A DNA stretch of 64,000 nucleotides from Chloracidobacterium thermophilum B (GTDB taxonomy: Bacteria > Acidobacteriota > Blastocatellia > Chloracidobacteriales > Chloracidobacteriaceae): NCBI RefSeq assembly GCF_000226295.1, contig NC_016024.1, positions 479,501-543,500 of the forward strand, in the 5' to 3' direction. How positions within the stretch are numbered: the first letter of the stretch is position 1; each line of letters starts with the position of its first letter. The translations under genes were made by a program, and so were the position numbers. Below are positions 24,356 through 60,800 of this stretch, in pieces. Under the pieces are notes generated by a model that did no database searches, was not told the origin of the DNA, and was given only the letters and a program-made list of their open reading frames with translations.

Positions 24356-25363
24356 CTAGCGCCCCAGGTGGCGGCGGAAGAAGTCCGGCAGCCGCACCTG
24401 GTGTTCCTCCACGGCGGCGCGGTAACAGCGTCCGTGCGTGGCCCCTTCCACAAGCCAGAGGTCTTTTTCCTTGGCATTGACCAGCGCCTCGAAAATGGCC
24501 TGCGAGTGATGGGGACGCACGAAGTCGTCGGCCAGTCCGTGCACAAGCTGCACCGGACAGGTGATCTTGCCGGCGATGGCCAGCGGATTGACATCCGAGA
24601 CCGAAAAGTTGCCCCGGTAGTTGGCGATGAGTTCAGCCACCCAGGTGGTGGGCACTACTGCCGTGGAGGGCATGCGCAGCACGTCGGCGACATACTCGCG
24701 TGAAATTTTTTGCAGCGATGAAAACGGGCTTTCGGCCCAGACAGCGGCAATGCGCGGGTCCCGCGCCGCCGTCTGAAGGGCAATGGCAGCGCCCATGGAA
24801 ATCCCGACCAGTCCGAAGTGCTGGTCCCGCAGGCGGAACTTTTTGGAAATGTGGTCGAGCGCCGCGCTGACATCGCGCACCTCGTGGTAGCCATAGGTGA
24901 CAAAGCGCCCGCCGCTGTGTCCGTGGGCGCGGCCGTCGAATAGGAACACGTTGAAACCGGCGTCGTAGAGGATGACACCAAACCGGATGAGGCTCGTCCG
25001 GTTGCCGGTCACGCCGTGCAGACCGACCACGGTGGGCCGCCACCAACCACGGTCGAGAAACCAGCCGGTGAGTTTCGTGCCATCGTAGGACGTAAACTGC
25101 GTTTCGCGGTAGGGAATCCGCCGTGCCCAGAGATAATCGCGCAGCCGCATGCTTTCCAGGTGGCGGCGGCGTTTGGGGCGCGGGGAAACCAGCAGGATGG
25201 AAAGCGGAATGGCAATGACCACGGAAGCGGCAAGATAGCCAGCCGTGACCCCGGCCGCAACCAGTCCAAGCCGCTTCAGCCAGTGTCCCCAGGAAGAGGT
25301 GGCCGCGCGCGACGTTGCCAGTGATGTTGGTGAGGAAGAAGCAACGGGATGCGTTGACGCCAT
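24356..25363 (-). CDS. Membrane-anchored alpha/beta hydrolase
   Basis: 335 aa. One N-terminal transmembrane segment (about 31-58, GLVAAGVTAGYLAASVVIAI) then an alpha/beta hydrolase domain with oxyanion-hole region GLHGVTGNR, nucleophile elbow GISMG (S189), and likely acid and base D280 (HGLADDF) and H310 (GATHG). This looks like the bacterial relatives of BEM46/ABHD13-type hydrolases. The substrate is unknown. It is divergent from the secretion operon that starts at 25629. Confidence 0.9.
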   Translation of the reverse strand: MASTHPVASSSPTSLATSRAATSSWGHWLKRLGLVAAGVTAGYLAASVVIAIPLSILLVSPRPKRRRHLESMRLRDYLWARRIPYRETQFTSYDGTKLTGWFLDRGWWRPTVVGLHGVTGNRTSLIRFGVILYDAGFNVFLFDGRAHGHSGGRFVTYGYHEVRDVSAALDHISKKFRLRDQHFGLVGISMGAAIALQTAARDPRIAAVWAESPFSSLQKISREYVADVLRMPSTAVVPTTWVAELIANYRGNFSVSDVNPLAIAGKITCPVQLVHGLADDFVRPHHSQAIFEALVNAKEKDLWLVEGATHGRCYRAAVEEHQVRLPDFFRRHLGR

Positions 25364-25571
25364 CTGCGACAGTCGTCAGGGCCCGTGGAACTTGCCGTCG
25401 GGGCCCGGGAAGAAATGGGAGCCGGGCCGCGCACGGCCTGTCTTTGTATTGTGGAGGCCGGATGGGATAGAAAACAAGCCGTCGGCTGCGGAAGCCCGGC
25501 AGAGGCGTCCAGACCGGACAGGCCTTTGTGCCTCCTTCACGAAAACTTCGGAACTTTCCTTCCGGGGGGCG

Positions 25572-25580
25572 TGCTATAGT
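25572..25580 (+). promoter_or_regulatory. Possible extended -10 promoter of the secretion operon
   Basis: TG-C-TATAGT reads as an extended -10 element, about 50 bases before the ATG at 25629. No convincing -35 was found. Its place at the head of six co-directional genes supports the call. Confidence 0.4.
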
Positions 25581-25628
25581 GGTGAACCTAACTCGGTTGG
25601 ATTGTCGTTGCTGACGATTGGAAAGTGC

Positions 25629-26846
25629 ATGCCTGAGTTTACCTGCCGCTTGGGGACGCCCAGCGGCGACATTGTGACCCGGATCGTTGAAGCCAACGGG
25701 ATTGAAGAACTGCGAACCCGCCTGCAAAACGAGGGTTTTCGCATCTTCGCCATCGAGCGTCCGGTCCGGCGGGCGCTGTCCCGGTCCCTCTTTGGTGGTG
25801 TCAAGGTCAAGTCCCAGGAATTTCTCCTCTACAACCAGCAGTTGGCCACGCTGCTCCGCGCCGGACTACCGCTGCTTCAGGTACTGAACATTCTGATTCG
25901 CCGTCAACCGCCGGGCGCATTTCGTACGGTGCTGGAGGATGTCGAGCGGCGCATTACCCGTGGTGCCCTGCTTTCGGAGGCGTACGGTGAGCATCCCGAC
26001 GTGTTTCCCCGTCTGCTGACGGCTTCGGTGCTTGCCGGGGAACGTTCCGGGGAGCTGGACGCGGTGCTGGAGCGGTACGTGACGTATGCCAAGGCGACCG
26101 CCGAAGTACGGCGCAAGCTCATCAAGACGCTGACCTACCCGGCCGTGCTCACCGTGGCTTCCGTGGCTCTGGTGGCCCTGCTGACCACCTATGTCATTCC
26201 CAAGTTTGCTACGTTGTATGAGTCGTCCCAGAGCCAGTTGCCGCTGGTGACGGTCTATGTTGTGGCGGTGTCGAAGGCGGTTGAAAACAACCTGTCGTGG
26301 GTCGGGCCGTTGCTTCTGACGGTGGCGCTGGGTTTTTTCTTCTGGCGACGTACAGACCACGGACGTGAGGTGCTGGATGGTCTGCTGCTCAGGTTGCCCA
26401 TCATCGGTGACATCATCCGACAGTCCACGACCGTCCGGTTCTGCCGCAGCGCCGCCACGCTGCTCAACGGCGGATTGCCGCTGCTCGAATCGCTTGACAT
26501 TGCTTCCGAGGTGATTGGCAACCGGCGCATTGCCAGGACGATGCCGGATGTCGTACGTGGGATTCAGGAAGGGAAGACCCTCGTCGAGGTGCTGGAGCAG
26601 GCGGGATGGCTCCCCCCGCTGGCCACGGACATGATTGGCGTAGGCGAACAATCCGGCGCACTTGTGACGATGCTCGATGAAGTGGCCCAGTTTTATGAAG
26701 CCGAACTCGATGTGAAAATCGCTTCGCTCACGGCGCTCGTCGAGCCGGTAGTGCTGACCTTTATGGGTGCCATTGTGCTCATCGTCGTCATGGCGCTTTA
26801 CCTGCCTATCCTGAATTTTGCAACGGGAGGTGCGGTGGCGCGCTGA
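25629..26846 (+). CDS. Type II secretion / type IV pilus inner-membrane platform protein (GspF/PilC family)
   Basis: 405 aa polytopic membrane protein that anchors the assembly ATPase. A short N-terminal domain (MPEFTCRLGTPSGDIVTRIVEA, typical of PilC/GspF) precedes two GspF repeats: FLLYNQQLATLLRAGLPLLQVL in the first and FCRSAATLLNGGLPLLESL in the second, each with paired transmembrane helices; the last helix ends near LNFATGGAVAR. ATG 25629 was chosen over a longer frame from 25245. First gene of the operon, 26 bases before the ATPase gene. Confidence 0.93.
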   Translation: MPEFTCRLGTPSGDIVTRIVEANGIEELRTRLQNEGFRIFAIERPVRRALSRSLFGGVKVKSQEFLLYNQQLATLLRAGLPLLQVLNILIRRQPPGAFRTVLEDVERRITRGALLSEAYGEHPDVFPRLLTASVLAGERSGELDAVLERYVTYAKATAEVRRKLIKTLTYPAVLTVASVALVALLTTYVIPKFATLYESSQSQLPLVTVYVVAVSKAVENNLSWVGPLLLTVALGFFFWRRTDHGREVLDGLLLRLPIIGDIIRQSTTVRFCRSAATLLNGGLPLLESLDIASEVIGNRRIARTMPDVVRGIQEGKTLVEVLEQAGWLPPLATDMIGVGEQSGALVTMLDEVAQFYEAELDVKIASLTALVEPVVLTFMGAIVLIVVMALYLPILNFATGGAVAR

Positions 26847-26872: not shown

Positions 26873-28507
26873 ATGTCTTTGGATTCCACTCCCGATCTGC
26901 CCTCGATGCTTCCCTCGGCGGAAGAAGCCGACCGTGAACTGGCGGCGGCGCGTGAACTGGCGCGGCGCTACCGGCTCGAATTCGTGGATTTGACTACGGC
27001 CGAACTGGATTACGACCTCATCCACAGCCATCCGGTGGAGTTGATGACCCGGTACAAGTTCGTCCCCCTGCGCCGGGAAAACGGACGGCTGCTGGCGGCC
27101 ATGGCTGATCCGACCAACCTCGATGCCTTGGATGAGCTGTCGGCCCAGTTGAAGGTGCGTATCAAACCGGCCGTCGCCACCCGGTCGGCCATTGAAACCG
27201 CCCTGCGCCGTGGGGATTCCGCCCAGCGCGTCCTGCAGGACGCCACGGAGTCATTCCGCATCAAGCTGGTCAAGGAAACCGACCAGGGCGAGCAGGACCT
27301 CGATCTCGACCGCCTGGCGGATGAAACCGCCCCCGTCATCAAGCTCGTGGACACCATCGTGCTGACGGCACTCGAACGGCGGGTTTCCGACATCCACATC
27401 GAGGCCTACGAGTCAGAAGTGCACGTCAAGTACCGCATTGACGGGGCACTCTATCCGGCGATGAATCCGATTGATGCGAGTTATCACCAGATGCTCATCT
27501 CACGCATCAAGGTCATGTCGGACCTTGACATTGCCGAGCGCCGGACACCCCAGGACGGACGCTTCCGGGTGCGCGTCAAGGGGCGGACGATTGACTTTCG
27601 CGTCTCCATCATTCCGGCTGCCTTTGGTGAAAACTGCGTCATCCGTATTCTGGACAAACAGCAGATCAACGAAGCCTTCCGCGAACTGACACTCAACGTG
27701 GTGGGATTTGACCCCCACGACCTGGCGCGCTTCCGGCGGTTCATCAAGGAACCCTACGGTATGGTGCTTGTCACCGGGCCGACGGGTTCCGGGAAAACGA
27801 CGACGCTTTACGCCGCGCTCAACGAAATTGCCAATCCCGAAGACAAGATCATCACCATCGAGGATCCGATTGAGTACCAACTGCGCGGCATCATGCAGAT
27901 TCCGGTCAACGAGAAAAAGGGCCTCACCTTTGCCCGTGGTCTGCGCGCCATCCTGCGGCATGACCCGGACAAGGTCATGGTTGGCGAAATCCGTGACACC
28001 GAAACCGCCCAGATTGCCATCAACGCCGCGCTGACCGGCCACCTGGTTTTCACCACGGTTCACGCCAACAATGTCATTGACGTTATTGGCCGATTCGTCA
28101 ACATGGGGGTCGAAGTCTATAACTTCGTCAGTTCCCTCAACTGCGTTCTGGCGCAGCGTCTGATCCGGCAGCTTTGCCCCTATTGCAAGCGGCAATACCA
28201 GCCGACGGACCAGGAACTCGAAGAAGCGGGCCTCAATCCAAGCAAGTTTCGGGATCAGGTTTTTTACGAGGCCGTGGGCTGCTCGGAATGCAACGGAACC
28301 GGCTACCGGGGACGCACGGCCATTCACGAAATGCTGGACTTGACCGATCGCATCCGCGAACTCATCCTCGACCGGCGCCCCGGCTCGGAGATTCGCCGCG
28401 CCGCGCGGGAAGAAGGGCTGGGTTCGCTGCGTGAATCGGCACTGAAAAAGGTATTTGCCGGAATTTCGACGTTGCGCGAAATCAACCGCGTGACGTTCGT
28501 CGAATAA
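26873..28507 (+). CDS. Type II secretion / type IV pilus assembly ATPase (GspE/PilB family)
   Basis: 544 aa cytoplasmic ATPase that drives pseudopilus or pilus extension. An N-terminal GspE/MshEN-type domain precedes the core: Walker A GPTGSGKTT near residue 302, Asp box IEDPIEYQLRG, Walker B-type VGEIRDTETAQIA, and His box TTVHANN. A tetracysteine zinc site is seen (CPYCKRQY near 435 and CSECNGTGYRGR near 468), as in GspE and PilB but not PilT retraction ATPases. Situated between the platform and secretin genes. Confidence 0.95.
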   Translation: MSLDSTPDLPSMLPSAEEADRELAAARELARRYRLEFVDLTTAELDYDLIHSHPVELMTRYKFVPLRRENGRLLAAMADPTNLDALDELSAQLKVRIKPAVATRSAIETALRRGDSAQRVLQDATESFRIKLVKETDQGEQDLDLDRLADETAPVIKLVDTIVLTALERRVSDIHIEAYESEVHVKYRIDGALYPAMNPIDASYHQMLISRIKVMSDLDIAERRTPQDGRFRVRVKGRTIDFRVSIIPAAFGENCVIRILDKQQINEAFRELTLNVVGFDPHDLARFRRFIKEPYGMVLVTGPTGSGKTTTLYAALNEIANPEDKIITIEDPIEYQLRGIMQIPVNEKKGLTFARGLRAILRHDPDKVMVGEIRDTETAQIAINAALTGHLVFTTVHANNVIDVIGRFVNMGVEVYNFVSSLNCVLAQRLIRQLCPYCKRQYQPTDQELEEAGLNPSKFRDQVFYEAVGCSECNGTGYRGRTAIHEMLDLTDRIRELILDRRPGSEIRRAAREEGLGSLRESALKKVFAGISTLREINRVTFVE

Positions 28508-28556
28508 AGCTGGTCTTCGCTTGATGTTTCCGCCTCGTACCGATTAGGGGGTGCTT

Positions 28557-31250
28557 ATGTTTCAACTACGGCTGACATTTCGTTTCGCATCCGGCTGGCG
28601 TCGGGTGATGGCACTGGGACTGTCAACGGCGTTGGTCATCGTCACGCTGTCACCGGTTGCCTGGGCCGGCAACGGCCGGAAGTACTTCAAGGAAGGTCTC
28701 AAGTACGAGGCGGTCAAGCAGTGGGACAAAGCCGCTGAACTCTTTGCCCAGGCGCTCCAGGAAGACCCACGCAACATCGAATACCAGCTTCACCTGCAAC
28801 GGGCCCTGTTCAACGCCTCAATGTTGTGCGCCATCCGCGCCCGGCAAATGGAAGAGCAGGGGGATTACGAAGGTGCGTATCACGCCTACCGTGAGGCCTA
28901 CCGCTACGACCAGACCAACGAAGTCGCCCTCGCCAAGATGAAGGAAATGCTCAAGAAACAGGGCATCGAGGCGACCTCGCAGGGCGAGCCTTCGCCCTAC
29001 CAGCGCACGGCGGCCGAAGCCAATGAAGCCGAAGTGCGCAGGGCCGCTGAAACGGTGGCGCGCCAACGCTATGTGGGACGCTGGCAGGGCTTCATCAACC
29101 AGCCGATTGAAACCATCATCCGCACGCTGTGCGACAAAATGCGCCTCAACGTCGTGTTTGAAAGCACGACCCTCCAGCAACTGGCCAACACGCGCTATAC
29201 GCTTGACATTAAGCAGGACATGACGGCCGGCAAGGCGCTGGAACTCGTCCTCGATGCCAACGGCTTTCAGTACTTTCGGGTGGACACCCGGACGATCCTC
29301 ATCGTCAAGCGGGGGCTGGGGCAGTTCCAGAACGGCGGCTCGCTGGCGCAGAAGTACGAGGATTCGCTCATCAAGCCGTTCTACATCAAAAACGCCAAGC
29401 TCGAAGACGTCAAGCAGATGCTGACGCTGCTCGGCCCGGCCATGGCGCAGCAGGTGGTAAGCGTTCCGCAATCGAACATGCTGCTGGTCCGCTCATCGGG
29501 CGAGAACCTGAAAATCATCGAGCGGATGATCAACACCGTGGACCGCCCCCAGGCGGAAGTCGTCATGGATGTCAACATCTATGAAGTGACTCACCAGGAA
29601 GCGCTCCAGTTGGGGAACCAGTTCGCCACAACGCCGCCAGCGATCACGACGTCCGACGGTGGCACAACCCTGGCCCTGACGCCACCCAGCGCCACCAACC
29701 TGGGCGGCATCGGGCAGGGGCCGCTGCTGCGTCCTGCCTCGCCGGCCGGAATCTTCTCCAATACGCTGGGTTTCGGGCTGGGGCTGCCGCCTTCGACCAT
29801 CACCGCGCTGCAAAGTCGTGGGCTGGGGCGGCTCATCTCACAGGTTCAGGTGCGGGCTTTCGAGGACAAGGAAGGCAAGGTCAACATCGGCCAGTCCATC
29901 CCGATTCAAATCGGCAATCCCTTCCCCACCGTTCCGGGCAACGGACAGCCGCCGGGACAAATCTTCTTCCCCGGCTTCAACCAAGTGCAGTACCGCGATG
30001 TCGGTTTGAACATTGCGGTCAAACCGCACATTACCGACGACATCGTGCAGATGGACATCTCCATCGAGACCTCCACGGCTCCGCCCAACACCGGGCCGCA
30101 GAATCTCACCCCGACGATTTCCCAGCGGAAGGTCAGTGGTGTGGCGCGTGTCCGGGACGGCTACACGGCTTTGGCCGCGAGTGTGATGCGCGAGGATGAC
30201 ACTGACAGCCGGACGGGGCTGCCCATCGTCAGCTTTATTCCGGTCATCGGGCGTCTGTTTTCCACACCCTCACGAAACAAGCAGGCCACTCACATTGTCA
30301 TCACGATCACGCCACACATCGTACGCGGAGGCGCGGTTACGGAAGAAGAACTCAAAACCGCCTTCGGTCCGCTCGATGTCTCCGTTGGCGTTGGCGGTCT
30401 GAGCTATGGCCGGTATCTCACCATTGACGAGATCGTGGCTGAGGCCGACCGCGAGGAGATGCGTGAAGCCAACCAGCTTCGGGAAACGCCGGTTACGGTG
30501 CAACCAACGGACAAGCCCGTGGGTACCCCGGCCGCTGCGCCGCCGGTAAGCAGCAGTGGTGAAAACGGACGCTTTACCATCACCACGGCGAGTACGACGG
30601 CACCACCTCCGACTATGCCAGCCGCACCGGTGGTGATCGATCCCATTCCGATGACGGCCACGAAGGGCGGAGGCCTTGGGGCGACCATCCAGCCCTTGCC
30701 CGTAACTGAGCCGTCGGCAGCCGGGGGCATGGCACCCAACGGCATGGCAACCAATGCGGCCTTCAATCCAAGCGATCCGAACACTCAGACGCCAACCCGG
30801 CCGACTCCAGGACCTGCCACGCCGGTGCGCGCCATGCTGATGGTGTCGCCCAGTCTGCGCCCGGCTGTGGGGCAGGTGGTTTCCGTGGCGGTCATTCTCA
30901 ACAGCGACGGCACGAACATCTCCGCAGCGTCCGTCTTCCTGCACTACAACCAGACGGTACTCAAGCTCGTCGGTATCCGGGATGGCGGGTTGCTGTCACC
31001 CGGCAGCTTCCAGACTGGGGACAACGGCGGGCAGGCTTTTGCCACGGCGCTGGTTTCAGCGGGCGTCAACACAGGCCGCCCAGCCATGGGGGCAGTAGCC
31101 ATTTTCGACTTCCAGGTGATTGCGCCGGGCAACGCTGATGTCCGCCTCGACGTGCTTGACCTGCGCGGCCTGACCAACGAACTCATCCCGGCCATTCCCA
31201 GCCCGGCACCGCCGGTCATTGCCGGTGGTATGCCGAACGGCAAGCAGTGA
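28557..31250 (+). CDS. Secretin (GspD/PilQ family) fused to a C-terminal cohesin-type domain
   Basis: 897 aa outer-membrane channel subunit. Order: signal segment ending near AWAGNG; a TPR-like helical region (about 40-140); STN/N0-like and N1 domains (about 180-330); the secretin core with VGLNIAVKPHITDDIVQMDISI and the C-terminal block GLPIVSFIPVIGRLFSTPS...HIVITITPHIVR; a Pro/Thr-rich linker (about 645-750); and a cohesin-like beta-sandwich (about 755-890: LMVSPSLRPAVGQVVSVAVIL, FLHYNQTVLKLVGI, GAVAIFDFQVIAPG). ATG 28557 has AGGGGG 5 bases upstream. The cohesin-like end may bind a partner or face outward; its role is inference. Confidence 0.92.
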   Translation: MFQLRLTFRFASGWRRVMALGLSTALVIVTLSPVAWAGNGRKYFKEGLKYEAVKQWDKAAELFAQALQEDPRNIEYQLHLQRALFNASMLCAIRARQMEEQGDYEGAYHAYREAYRYDQTNEVALAKMKEMLKKQGIEATSQGEPSPYQRTAAEANEAEVRRAAETVARQRYVGRWQGFINQPIETIIRTLCDKMRLNVVFESTTLQQLANTRYTLDIKQDMTAGKALELVLDANGFQYFRVDTRTILIVKRGLGQFQNGGSLAQKYEDSLIKPFYIKNAKLEDVKQMLTLLGPAMAQQVVSVPQSNMLLVRSSGENLKIIERMINTVDRPQAEVVMDVNIYEVTHQEALQLGNQFATTPPAITTSDGGTTLALTPPSATNLGGIGQGPLLRPASPAGIFSNTLGFGLGLPPSTITALQSRGLGRLISQVQVRAFEDKEGKVNIGQSIPIQIGNPFPTVPGNGQPPGQIFFPGFNQVQYRDVGLNIAVKPHITDDIVQMDISIETSTAPPNTGPQNLTPTISQRKVSGVARVRDGYTALAASVMREDDTDSRTGLPIVSFIPVIGRLFSTPSRNKQATHIVITITPHIVRGGAVTEEELKTAFGPLDVSVGVGGLSYGRYLTIDEIVAEADREEMREANQLRETPVTVQPTDKPVGTPAAAPPVSSSGENGRFTITTASTTAPPPTMPAAPVVIDPIPMTATKGGGLGATIQPLPVTEPSAAGGMAPNGMATNAAFNPSDPNTQTPTRPTPGPATPVRAMLMVSPSLRPAVGQVVSVAVILNSDGTNISAASVFLHYNQTVLKLVGIRDGGLLSPGSFQTGDNGGQAFATALVSAGVNTGRPAMGAVAIFDFQVIAPGNADVRLDVLDLRGLTNELIPAIPSPAPPVIAGGMPNGKQ

Positions 31251-31274
31251 GATGTCGCCAGGAAGGTGAAACCG

Positions 31275-31865
31275 GTGAAGAACGGATGGATTTCTCTCCA
31301 CGTGAAGGATGGGCAGCCGCCGGGATGGCCTTGCACCCACCAGATTGCCGCTTTCTGGCCAGCTCCGTCGATAAGGCCCTGGATGGGGAGCGGCCGCACG
31401 GCGCAGCGTGGCTCATCCCTGCTGGAGATGATCATTACCCTGGCGATTCTAGCCATCCTGACCAGCGCCGCCCTGCCTCTGGCGCGCACGGCTGCCCGAA
31501 GCCGGCAGGAGACCGAACTGCGGCGAGCGCTCCGTGAAATCCGCTTCGCCATTGACCGCTACAAGGAGTTCAATGACCAGACCGGTGGGCAACGTATTCC
31601 GGTCGAGCTGCGTACGCCGAGCGGCTACCCCAAAAACCTGGAAGTGCTCTATGAAGGGTTCGTCCCGGTCGGCAACGTGGATGGCAGGAAAATCTTTTTC
31701 CTGCGGCGGCTTCCGATTGATCCGATGACAGGCAAAGCCGACTGGCAAACCCGCAGTTCACAGGATGACCCGGATTTTGCACTTTCCTTGGGGGATGATG
31801 TGTTTGATGTCCGGTCGCGTTCGACGGCTACGGCCCTGGATGGAACACGCTATGACGAGTGGTAA
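31275..31865 (+). CDS. Type II secretion pseudopilin-like prepilin (GspG-type), first copy
   Basis: 196 aa from GTG 31275, preceded by AGGAAGG 9 bases upstream. The class III prepilin signal is RG/SSLLEMIITLAILAILTSAALP, with Glu at +5 after the cleavage Gly; the leader would then be 46 residues, unusually long. ATG 31383 would give a normal 10-residue leader (MGSGRTAQRG) but has weaker spacing to a ribosome site. The C-terminal end, ALDGTRYDEW, resembles the GspG loop. It is probably cleaved and methylated by a prepilin peptidase encoded elsewhere. Confidence 0.88.
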   Translation: MKNGWISLHVKDGQPPGWPCTHQIAAFWPAPSIRPWMGSGRTAQRGSSLLEMIITLAILAILTSAALPLARTAARSRQETELRRALREIRFAIDRYKEFNDQTGGQRIPVELRTPSGYPKNLEVLYEGFVPVGNVDGRKIFFLRRLPIDPMTGKADWQTRSSQDDPDFALSLGDDVFDVRSRSTATALDGTRYDEW

Positions 31866-31878
31866 GGAGGAAGCTGGT

Positions 31879-32307
31879 TTGAAAGGAACCTGTACAGAGG
31901 GTGCTTCGGGACACCTGTGGGCAAGACGTGACCGGGGTTTCACCATACTGGAACTGGTCATCGTCATGACCATCATGTCCATCCTGCTGACGGTGAGCAT
32001 TCCCATCTACCGCACTCTTCTGGTACGGGCGCGGGAGACGGTTCTGCGCGAAAATCTTTTCAAGATGCGCGATGCCATCAACCGCTACACCTACGACAAA
32101 AACCGCGCGCCGCAAACCCTGAGCGATCTCGCAAGTGCCAAGTATCTGCGCGAAATCCCGATTGACCCCATCACCCAGAGCCGTGATACCTGGGTGGTGC
32201 GTCTGGAAGATGAGCCGGTCGTCCCTTCAGCGCCACGGGGCATTGTGGATGTCTTCAGCGGCGCAGAGGGCATTGGCACGGATGGCGTCCCTTACAACGA
32301 ATGGTGA
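31879..32307 (+). CDS. Type II secretion pseudopilin-like prepilin (GspG-type), second copy
   Basis: 142 aa. I chose TTG 31879 because AAGGAGG (31864-31870) lies 8 bases upstream, partly inside the previous stop; an ATG at 31852 has no such site and overlaps the previous gene. This gives leader MKGTCTEGASGHLWARRDRG, then the type III cleavage site RG/FTILELVIVMTIMSILLTVS with Glu at +5. The sequence ends GTDGVPYNEW, similar to the first prepilin, and both carry LPIDPMT or IPIDPIT, so they are paralogs. Confidence 0.9.
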   Translation: MKGTCTEGASGHLWARRDRGFTILELVIVMTIMSILLTVSIPIYRTLLVRARETVLRENLFKMRDAINRYTYDKNRAPQTLSDLASAKYLREIPIDPITQSRDTWVVRLEDEPVVPSAPRGIVDVFSGAEGIGTDGVPYNEW

Positions 32308-32368
32308 AGCCGCGCGTCGTCGGGCGCGTGTGTTCCGGCTACTTTCCCAACCTCCCTGGAATAACTCC

Positions 32369-33307
32369 ATGAGTATCTTTGAACGCTTCTGGCGGCGGCT
32401 TGTGTTTCCGTCTCCCTCACGCGCCCTGTGTGCACTGACCGCCGAAGGCGTCGTCATGTTTGACCGGCGCACCCGGCAGTCACACTTTCAGCCCTGGGTG
32501 GACCAGGCTTTCCAACCGGCCTTTGATACGGAAAACGTCCGCCAGGCCAGGGCGTTTGCCTCCACGTTGATTCAGGGGACGCACGCGCTGGGGTTGGCTG
32601 GGGAGCGCCGGTGGTCGGTGCTGCTGCCGGGAGCCACCGCCCGTGCCTATGTCGTAACTATCGAGACGACCATTCCTCCGCAGGATGTACCGGATGTCCT
32701 CGTGTGGAAAGCTGAGCGGTTGACCGGGCTGCCACAGGAAGACATCTGGATGGCCACGGCCGAATTGGGACCGGGTGTGACCGCAAGTGGCGCTGCCGGG
32801 AGGCGGTTTTTGCTGGCGGCCATGAGCCGGCGCGTGGCGCTTGGCCTACAGTCCGCTCTGGAACAGTTGAACTGGCAGCCCGGTCTGCTACTGCCCCGGC
32901 TCGTCGGGGAAGCGCTGTGGGTGCAGCATGTTGCGGTGCAGCCTGATCAGATGCTCATCAGCGTGGAGGATGATACTTTGGCCGTTATGCTGCTTCAGCG
33001 GGGCGTCCCGCTGTCCATCCGCACGTTGCCGCTGGCCGGCGAGTTGCCCGCCGAGCAGTTGCTCCGGGTGCTGCTATTCTTCCGTGAACACGCCGTTGAG
33101 TCCGGGCTTGGCTCGGCCGAACAGGAAATCCGGTTTGAGGTTTTGCCGGTCAACGTCCCGCTCGAAAGCGCTGAAATCAGTCAGTGCATCCGTGAGACCT
33201 TTGGTGAGCCACTACGAGTCATTGCACCACAGCAGCTTGGGTTTGATTCTTCGGCAGAGTTTTCCCGGCTGGCCGGCGTCACCGGTCTGGCTTTGGCCAC
33301 GGCTTGA
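32369..33307 (+). CDS. PilM/GspL-like assembly protein
   Basis: 312 aa. No transmembrane segment. It has an actin-like pattern seen in PilM-type proteins: repeated short hydrophobic strands (LCALTAEGVVMFDR, WSVLLPGATARAYVV), VPDVLVWKAERLTGLP, and FLLAAMSRRVALGLQSALEQL. PilM normally recruits PilN and PilO; neither gene follows here. Identity rests on pattern and on location after two prepilins, so it is provisional. Confidence 0.7.
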   Translation: MSIFERFWRRLVFPSPSRALCALTAEGVVMFDRRTRQSHFQPWVDQAFQPAFDTENVRQARAFASTLIQGTHALGLAGERRWSVLLPGATARAYVVTIETTIPPQDVPDVLVWKAERLTGLPQEDIWMATAELGPGVTASGAAGRRFLLAAMSRRVALGLQSALEQLNWQPGLLLPRLVGEALWVQHVAVQPDQMLISVEDDTLAVMLLQRGVPLSIRTLPLAGELPAEQLLRVLLFFREHAVESGLGSAEQEIRFEVLPVNVPLESAEISQCIRETFGEPLRVIAPQQLGFDSSAEFSRLAGVTGLALATA

Positions 33308-60123: not shown

Positions 60124-60669
60124 TCAGGGGTTGAAAGGTTGATAGGCTGATTCAGGTGGCGGGTCCACACTCGGCAACGCCACGAGAATCATTCCGGTCT
60201 GCCGGCGCGTCACCGTCGCGCGCAGGCGGTAGCGAAAGCGCCGACAGCGGCGCGCCTGGCTTGGGAGCGGGTCGGCGTCGAGCGTAAAGCCCGCCGCATT
60301 GGCTTCAAAACGCAGGCTGTAGCCGTACCAGCCATCGCCAATGACCTCACTGGCGGCAACCCCGTCCAACCGACGCTCAAAACCATCCAGCAGACCCAGG
60401 TGGTCAATAAGCTGTTCCCATGTGCCGAACCGCCCGTGCATGGCATGGTGCGCCGTTTGGGCCGTGACCATCGTCTGGATGTTTTTGACCGCCCGCTGTT
60501 CAGCCACGACCACCACTACCCACCGGTAGGCCAGAACGGACAGCGCCAGCAGGATGCCAAGGATGGCCACAGCCACGAGCAGTTCAACGGCACTGGCCCC
60601 ACGCGCCCGAACCCGGCCGCGGGCACCACCAAGTCCCGTGCAAAAAATACGGCGCTGCCCACGCTGCAC
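60124..60669 (-). CDS. Type IV pilin-like / pseudopilin-like protein, isolated
   Basis: Class III prepilin signal RG/ASAVELLVAVAILGILLALSVLAY, with Glu at +5, followed by a long helix and a mixed C-terminal domain. I chose GTG 60669, which has AGGTGG 6 bases upstream; the open frame reaches TTG 60744, so the start is uncertain. The prepilin operon at 25629-33307 is far away; this protein could be a minor pseudopilin of the same system or of another. Function unknown. Confidence 0.75.
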   Translation of the reverse strand: MQRGQRRIFCTGLGGARGRVRARGASAVELLVAVAILGILLALSVLAYRWVVVVVAEQRAVKNIQTMVTAQTAHHAMHGRFGTWEQLIDHLGLLDGFERRLDGVAASEVIGDGWYGYSLRFEANAAGFTLDADPLPSQARRCRRFRYRLRATVTRRQTGMILVALPSVDPPPESAYQPFNP

Positions 60670-60800
60670 CGGCACCCACCTGAAACCCTGGATGGAAATG
60701 TTTGTTGGGGCGCAATGGTAACGAAGGGGAAATACCGGAAACAAGCCTGAATCCTGCTGGTGAGAGGTACTTTCGGGCTGTGGCGCAGCCGCCGGTCTTT

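Follow-up and report, generated by a model that had tools for sequence, protein, structure and literature searches.

A secretin with a C-terminal cohesin domain in a type II secretion-like operon of Chloracidobacterium thermophilum and its relatives in Acidobacteriota

Gene organization of the locus

The window, a stretch of 64,000 nucleotides from Chloracidobacterium thermophilum B (NC_016024.1, positions 479,501 to 543,500), was found to contain an intact reading frame that begins with ATG and encodes a TPR-secretin-cohesin protein (Table 1). The gene order around it was PilC-PilB-secretin-two pseudopilins-PilM-like, and related genomes from many lineages were found to contain the order PilC-PilB-PilM-PilN-PilO-(PilP-like)-secretin-two pseudopilins. 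The PilM-like protein of the window did not show any Pfam match of its own. The ATPase, platform protein, pseudopilin and secretin genes were present in one cluster, the combination by which a T2SS-like machine of the type IV filament superfamily is recognized. A lone pseudopilin candidate with the prepilin-like N-terminal motif GASAVELLVAVAILGILLALSV was also observed outside the operon, on the minus strand (60124-60744).

Table 1. Genes of the operon and domains of the secretin (positions in the window; residues of the 897-aa protein)
Feature	Position	Strand	Evidence and remarks
PilC/GspF inner-membrane platform protein	25245..26846	+	T2SSF 184 bits; start probably further downstream; same operon
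PilB/GspE assembly ATPase with MshEN domain	26873..28507	+	T2SSE 439 bits, MshEN 77.5 bits; same operon
TPR-secretin-cohesin protein, 897 aa	28557..31250	+	Possible upstream GTG at 28551
TPR domain, N-terminal, residues ~38-141	28668..28979	+	Pfam TPR_2 30.2 bits, over cut-off; helices pLDDT mostly >90; TPR_2 in 19/20 relatives
N0/STN-like domain, residues 179-251	29091..29309	+	STN and FecR_C sub-threshold; alpha/beta fold in model
N1 domain (Secretin_N), residues 275-333	29379..29555	+	Pfam 32.4 bits, over cut-off, E 1.1e-7
Secretin core, residues 417-590	29805..30326	+	PF00263 100.8 bits, over cut-off, E 8e-29
Lone helix, residues 623-642, where S-domain helix would be	30423..30482	+	Full-length model; position only
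Disordered linker, residues ~643-752, Pro/Thr/Ala/Gly-rich	30483..30812	+	pLDDT mostly <40; composition; fast-evolving
Cohesin domain, residues ~756-885	30822..31211	+	Pfam, PDB profile matches, AlphaFold2/Foldseek, dN/dS
Pseudopilin 1	31266..31865	+	N_methyl over cut-off; prepilin motif residues 45-70; true start probably downstream; syntenic homologues
Pseudopilin 2, GspG-like	31765..32307	+	N_methyl 31.6 bits, over cut-off; prepilin motif residues 54-77; syntenic homologues
PilM-like assembly protein	32135..33307	+	Real start near 32360; aligned by hhalign with PilM from related operons (probability 99.7%, E 2.2e-25)

The genome was found to contain only one other secretin, a PilQ of 925 aa without TPR or cohesin (locus L176, C1:1836000-1855000). 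It lies 1.3 Mb away in a pilMNOPQ-type operon, in which the names pilM, pilN, pilO and pilP were given from gene order, size and N-terminal sequence and not from a family search. Because that operon has a separate PilQ, the cohesin was assigned to a second, type II secretion-like machine. The window secretin may thus be the outer-membrane channel of a T2SS-like machine apart from the type IV pilus, a reading held at roughly even confidence jointly with the periplasmic docking proposed below.

Domain architecture of the secretin

The protein had been described preliminarily as an ordinary secretin with STN, N1 and core. The secretin core and the N1 domain stood, both over the Pfam cut-off, but the description was incomplete because the N-terminal TPR domain had been missed. 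STN was found at 15.1 bits against a cut-off of 28.4, and was present in 5 of 20 relatives; the N0 fold was seen in the model. The full-length model was found to contain a signal region followed by TPR (38-141), N0 (179-251), N1 (271-328), core (334-590), a helix (623-642) and cohesin (757-881), and the Pro/Thr-rich linker that had been noted before the cohesin was disordered in it, at about 110 residues. The overall pTM was 0.36, a low value that is expected with flexibly linked domains, so the domains are trustworthy and not their arrangement.

The window protein shares with GspD of the T2SS (TIGR02517) the N1 domain, a probable N0, the secretin core and the neighbours GspE, GspF and pseudopilins, but it scored 132.8 against the cut-off of 351.35, carries TPR and cohesin in addition, and belongs to a machine with PilM/N/O-like assembly proteins. 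With PilQ of the type IV pilus (TIGR02515) it shares the secretin core, and PilM/N/O-like neighbours occur in the operons related to that of the window; the score, however, was 103.7 against a cut-off of 284.35, and the pilMNOPQ secretin is another gene. The RcpA-TadD pair of the Tad system (PMC10499894) is similar in having a TPR protein that works with a secretin, but the TPR pilotin of that system is a lipoprotein of its own, which binds the secretin C-terminus, whereas the TPR of the window protein is fused at the N-terminus.

Identity of the cohesin domain and selection on it

The C-terminal domain was found to be a true cohesin. In the whole-protein Pfam scan, PF00963 matched residues 770-838 with 21.2 bits against a cut-off of 24.1 (E 3.6e-4), and in the genome-level search (two contigs, 3,695,372 bases in all) the same cohesin reached 24.7 bits, above the cut-off; matches of relatives went up to E 6.2e-14. 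The domain alone gave weak matches in the PDB by single-sequence phmmer, the best of which was a cohesin (E 0.73). A profile was then built from 26 C-terminal domains, one from the window and 25 from homologous secretins, the latter 14-24% identical to the window copy, and all 28 of its PDB matches at E <0.1 were cohesins (best E 1.4e-10).

AlphaFold2 predicted the C-terminal domain as a beta-sandwich (pLDDT 87, pTM 0.81), and cohesins occupied ranks 1-25 of the Foldseek search against PDB, with TM 0.62-0.78. The cohesin-like beta-sandwich of about 135 residues that had been read from the sequence was therefore borne out by both profile and fold. A secretin S-domain in place of the cohesin was ruled out by the same fold matches. 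The best matches included 2xdh, a non-cellulosomal cohesin of Archaeoglobus fulgidus (sequence E 6.1e-10, fold TM 0.76) which, unlike the window cohesin, is no part of a secretin.

Among congeners, the cohesin was found to have a dN/dS of about 0.07-0.11, compared with 0.04-0.08 for the pore and 0.15-0.40 for the linker. The more distant congeners were 79-87% identical in the cohesin vs 46-57% in the linker, and the closer congener (L054) was 96% and 89% identical, respectively. Purifying selection acts strongly on the cohesin, about as it does on the pore, and the linker drifts. From the profile, fold and dN/dS results together, the domain is therefore a maintained cohesin and not a chance likeness.

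Distribution in Acidobacteriota and Burkholderiales

The preliminary description had guessed at similar fusions in the secretins of other Acidobacteriota, and searches of 247 sampled genomes agreed with this. The whole-protein profile at E 1e-20 found a homologue in 241/247 genomes, with most of the alignments listed reaching the end of the cohesin, and PF00963 at E 0.001 was found in 141/247, many times in ORFs of secretin size. The 20 operon secretins scanned, which were chosen by their cohesin matches so that the count is not unbiased, all contained Secretin (PF00263), Secretin_N and Cohesin (PF00963), and TPR was present in 19 of them; the single one without TPR is probably the one truncated by a contig end.

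A scan of named genomes with a 7-row subset of a 20-row alignment gave 80 loci, and almost all of them carried an Acidobacteriota, Aminicenantes or related MAG label. One record (L144) was titled Bifidobacterium breve MAG; its secretin was of acidobacterial type and the label is probably wrong. The TPR-secretins at these loci were found with cohesin in 38 cases and without it in 34. In a quick tree, 31 cohesin-less secretins formed one clade (support 100) and the presence or absence of cohesin needed five changes overall, the losses outside that clade being isolated. The genes of the cohesin-less clade have other neighbours, and the pilus-type operon is absent around them. A large clade of TPR-secretins of about 600 aa without cohesin was seen at L111-L173 (e.g. 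L124, L131, L148), with no PilC/PilB nearby and with neighbouring genes of about 560-660 aa and about 230 aa to which no role was assigned. Operon secretins without cohesin were few (L100, L141, L180); the domain is therefore not strictly essential.

The same architecture and the same kind of operon were found on Burkholderiales plasmids, with the cohesin over the Pfam cut-off in three of four. WP_301260250.1 (Eleftheria terrae) and WP_176386355.1 (Janthinobacterium lividum) contained TPR, STN/N1, secretin and cohesin in one protein, encoded in the cluster GspF-GspE-(M/N/O-like)-secretin-pseudopilin. They come from a different phylum, and their secretin parts are about 23-27% identical to that of the window protein.

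These distributions bear on whether the domain could be a beta-sandwich with a passive role, serving the channel as a surrounding spacer or steric element and having no specific partner. The divergence of the cohesin across the phylum (15-24% identity to the window copy) and its loss in single members would suit such an element, but within the genus the purifying selection is as strong as on the pore, and the domain has been long retained across the phylum and in Burkholderiales; a passive role is thus considered improbable.

Dockerins and the position of the cohesin

It had been suggested that the cohesin might hold a surface partner or tether secreted substrates in the manner of a cellulosome, the cellulose-degrading complex from which cohesins are known as docking modules, with a search of the genome for dockerin-bearing proteins as the check. 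Dockerin_1 (PF00404) was not found in the genome at E 0.001, the best match having 13 bits and E 0.48, though a dockerin that has diverged too far could escape PF00404. Across the sampled phylum no association of cohesin with dockerin was found (odds ratio 1.24, p 0.43), in a count that includes cohesins of non-secretin proteins. Solved secretin structures place the S-domain, which follows the core, in the periplasm, where lipoprotein pilotins bind it (PMC6532946, PMC10499894); a surface position of the cohesin is therefore unlikely.

A cellulosome-like tether would have the cohesin hold dockerin-bearing proteins, either secreted enzymes or surface proteins, on the outside of the cell. Such a tether would agree with the true cohesin fold and sequence of the domain and with the dockerins encoded by some Acidobacteriota (92 of 244 genomes). 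It is opposed by the lack of PF00404 matches in the genome and of an association in the phylum, by the expected periplasmic location, and by family f13, where about 25 genomes contain cohesin and only one of them (G155) contains a dockerin. The suggestion was accordingly set aside as very improbable. Another acidobacterial genome (L048, G062:C204) has several clustered cohesin proteins, one or more of them with a dockerin as well (875 aa), and this cluster was noted as a candidate non-cellulosomal cohesin-dockerin system.

Proposed role of the cohesin domain

Each subunit is predicted to contain TPR at the N-terminus followed by one cohesin at the C-terminus after a long flexible linker. With one tethered cohesin per subunit, the assembled ring would therefore carry roughly a dozen of them or more on the outside of the channel. 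These would surround the channel base on the periplasmic side of the outer membrane, and the cohesin ring may capture a partner protein by a cohesin-type protein-protein contact. Both the ring stoichiometry and the membrane side on which the cohesins lie are carried over from other secretins by analogy. The partner would be something other than a Dockerin_1 protein: a substrate that is secreted, a factor needed for assembly, or an anchor formed by the cell wall or a lipoprotein. Cohesin folds occur also as plain adhesive or spacer beta-sandwiches, so that docking is a putative role. Periplasmic capture of a partner by the cohesins, taken as a whole, is put forward with the balance about even. 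The narrower proposal, in which the periplasmic ring uses a new, non-dockerin class of cohesin partner to select substrates for a secretion machine found throughout the phylum, is considered unlikely.

The cohesin could instead replace the S-domain, binding the cell wall or a lipoprotein of the outer membrane so as to pilot or anchor the secretin rather than to recruit substrates. It is located where S-domains are found, after the lone helix, and pilotins bind the C-termini of secretins (PMC6532946, PMC10499894). A pilotin may be needed by the window member, since that protein has no lipobox. Nevertheless, a lipobox-like motif was found near the N-terminus in 31 of 53 cohesin-bearing relatives by a crude regular expression, and this motif together with the fused TPR, which is like the TPR pilotins TadD and PilF, suggests self-piloting without the C-terminus. 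Short relatives without cohesin also exist. Replacement of the S-domain is regarded as possible but rather doubtful, and periplasmic docking is retained as the preferred reading.

No paper on a cohesin-secretin fusion, or on cohesin in Acidobacteriota, was found in the incomplete, open-access set of papers that was searched, and a 2019 survey of type IV filaments made no mention of cohesin. Two of the Burkholderiales proteins are named 'cohesin domain-containing protein' at NCBI; the combination of domains can thus be seen in public annotation and does not count as undiscovered at the sequence level. Substrate recognition by type II secretion machines is a long-standing open question. The channel described here has a conserved docking-type domain of its own in almost all sampled Acidobacteriota genomes, and this domain is a concrete candidate, open to test, for the site of recognition or anchoring; the finding also moves cohesins from the cellulosome into the cell envelope.

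Some neighbouring genes were noted separately. On the Janthinobacterium lividum plasmid (L178, 1-5423), the cohesin-secretin operon was flanked by FG-GAP and RHS repeat proteins, which are possible substrates. In Aminicenantes and related MAGs (L110, L126, L130, L137, L138), a giant ORF was present directly downstream of the cohesin secretin; it contained at least 2000-2300 aa, was cut by the end of the locus in all five, and could be a secreted substrate.
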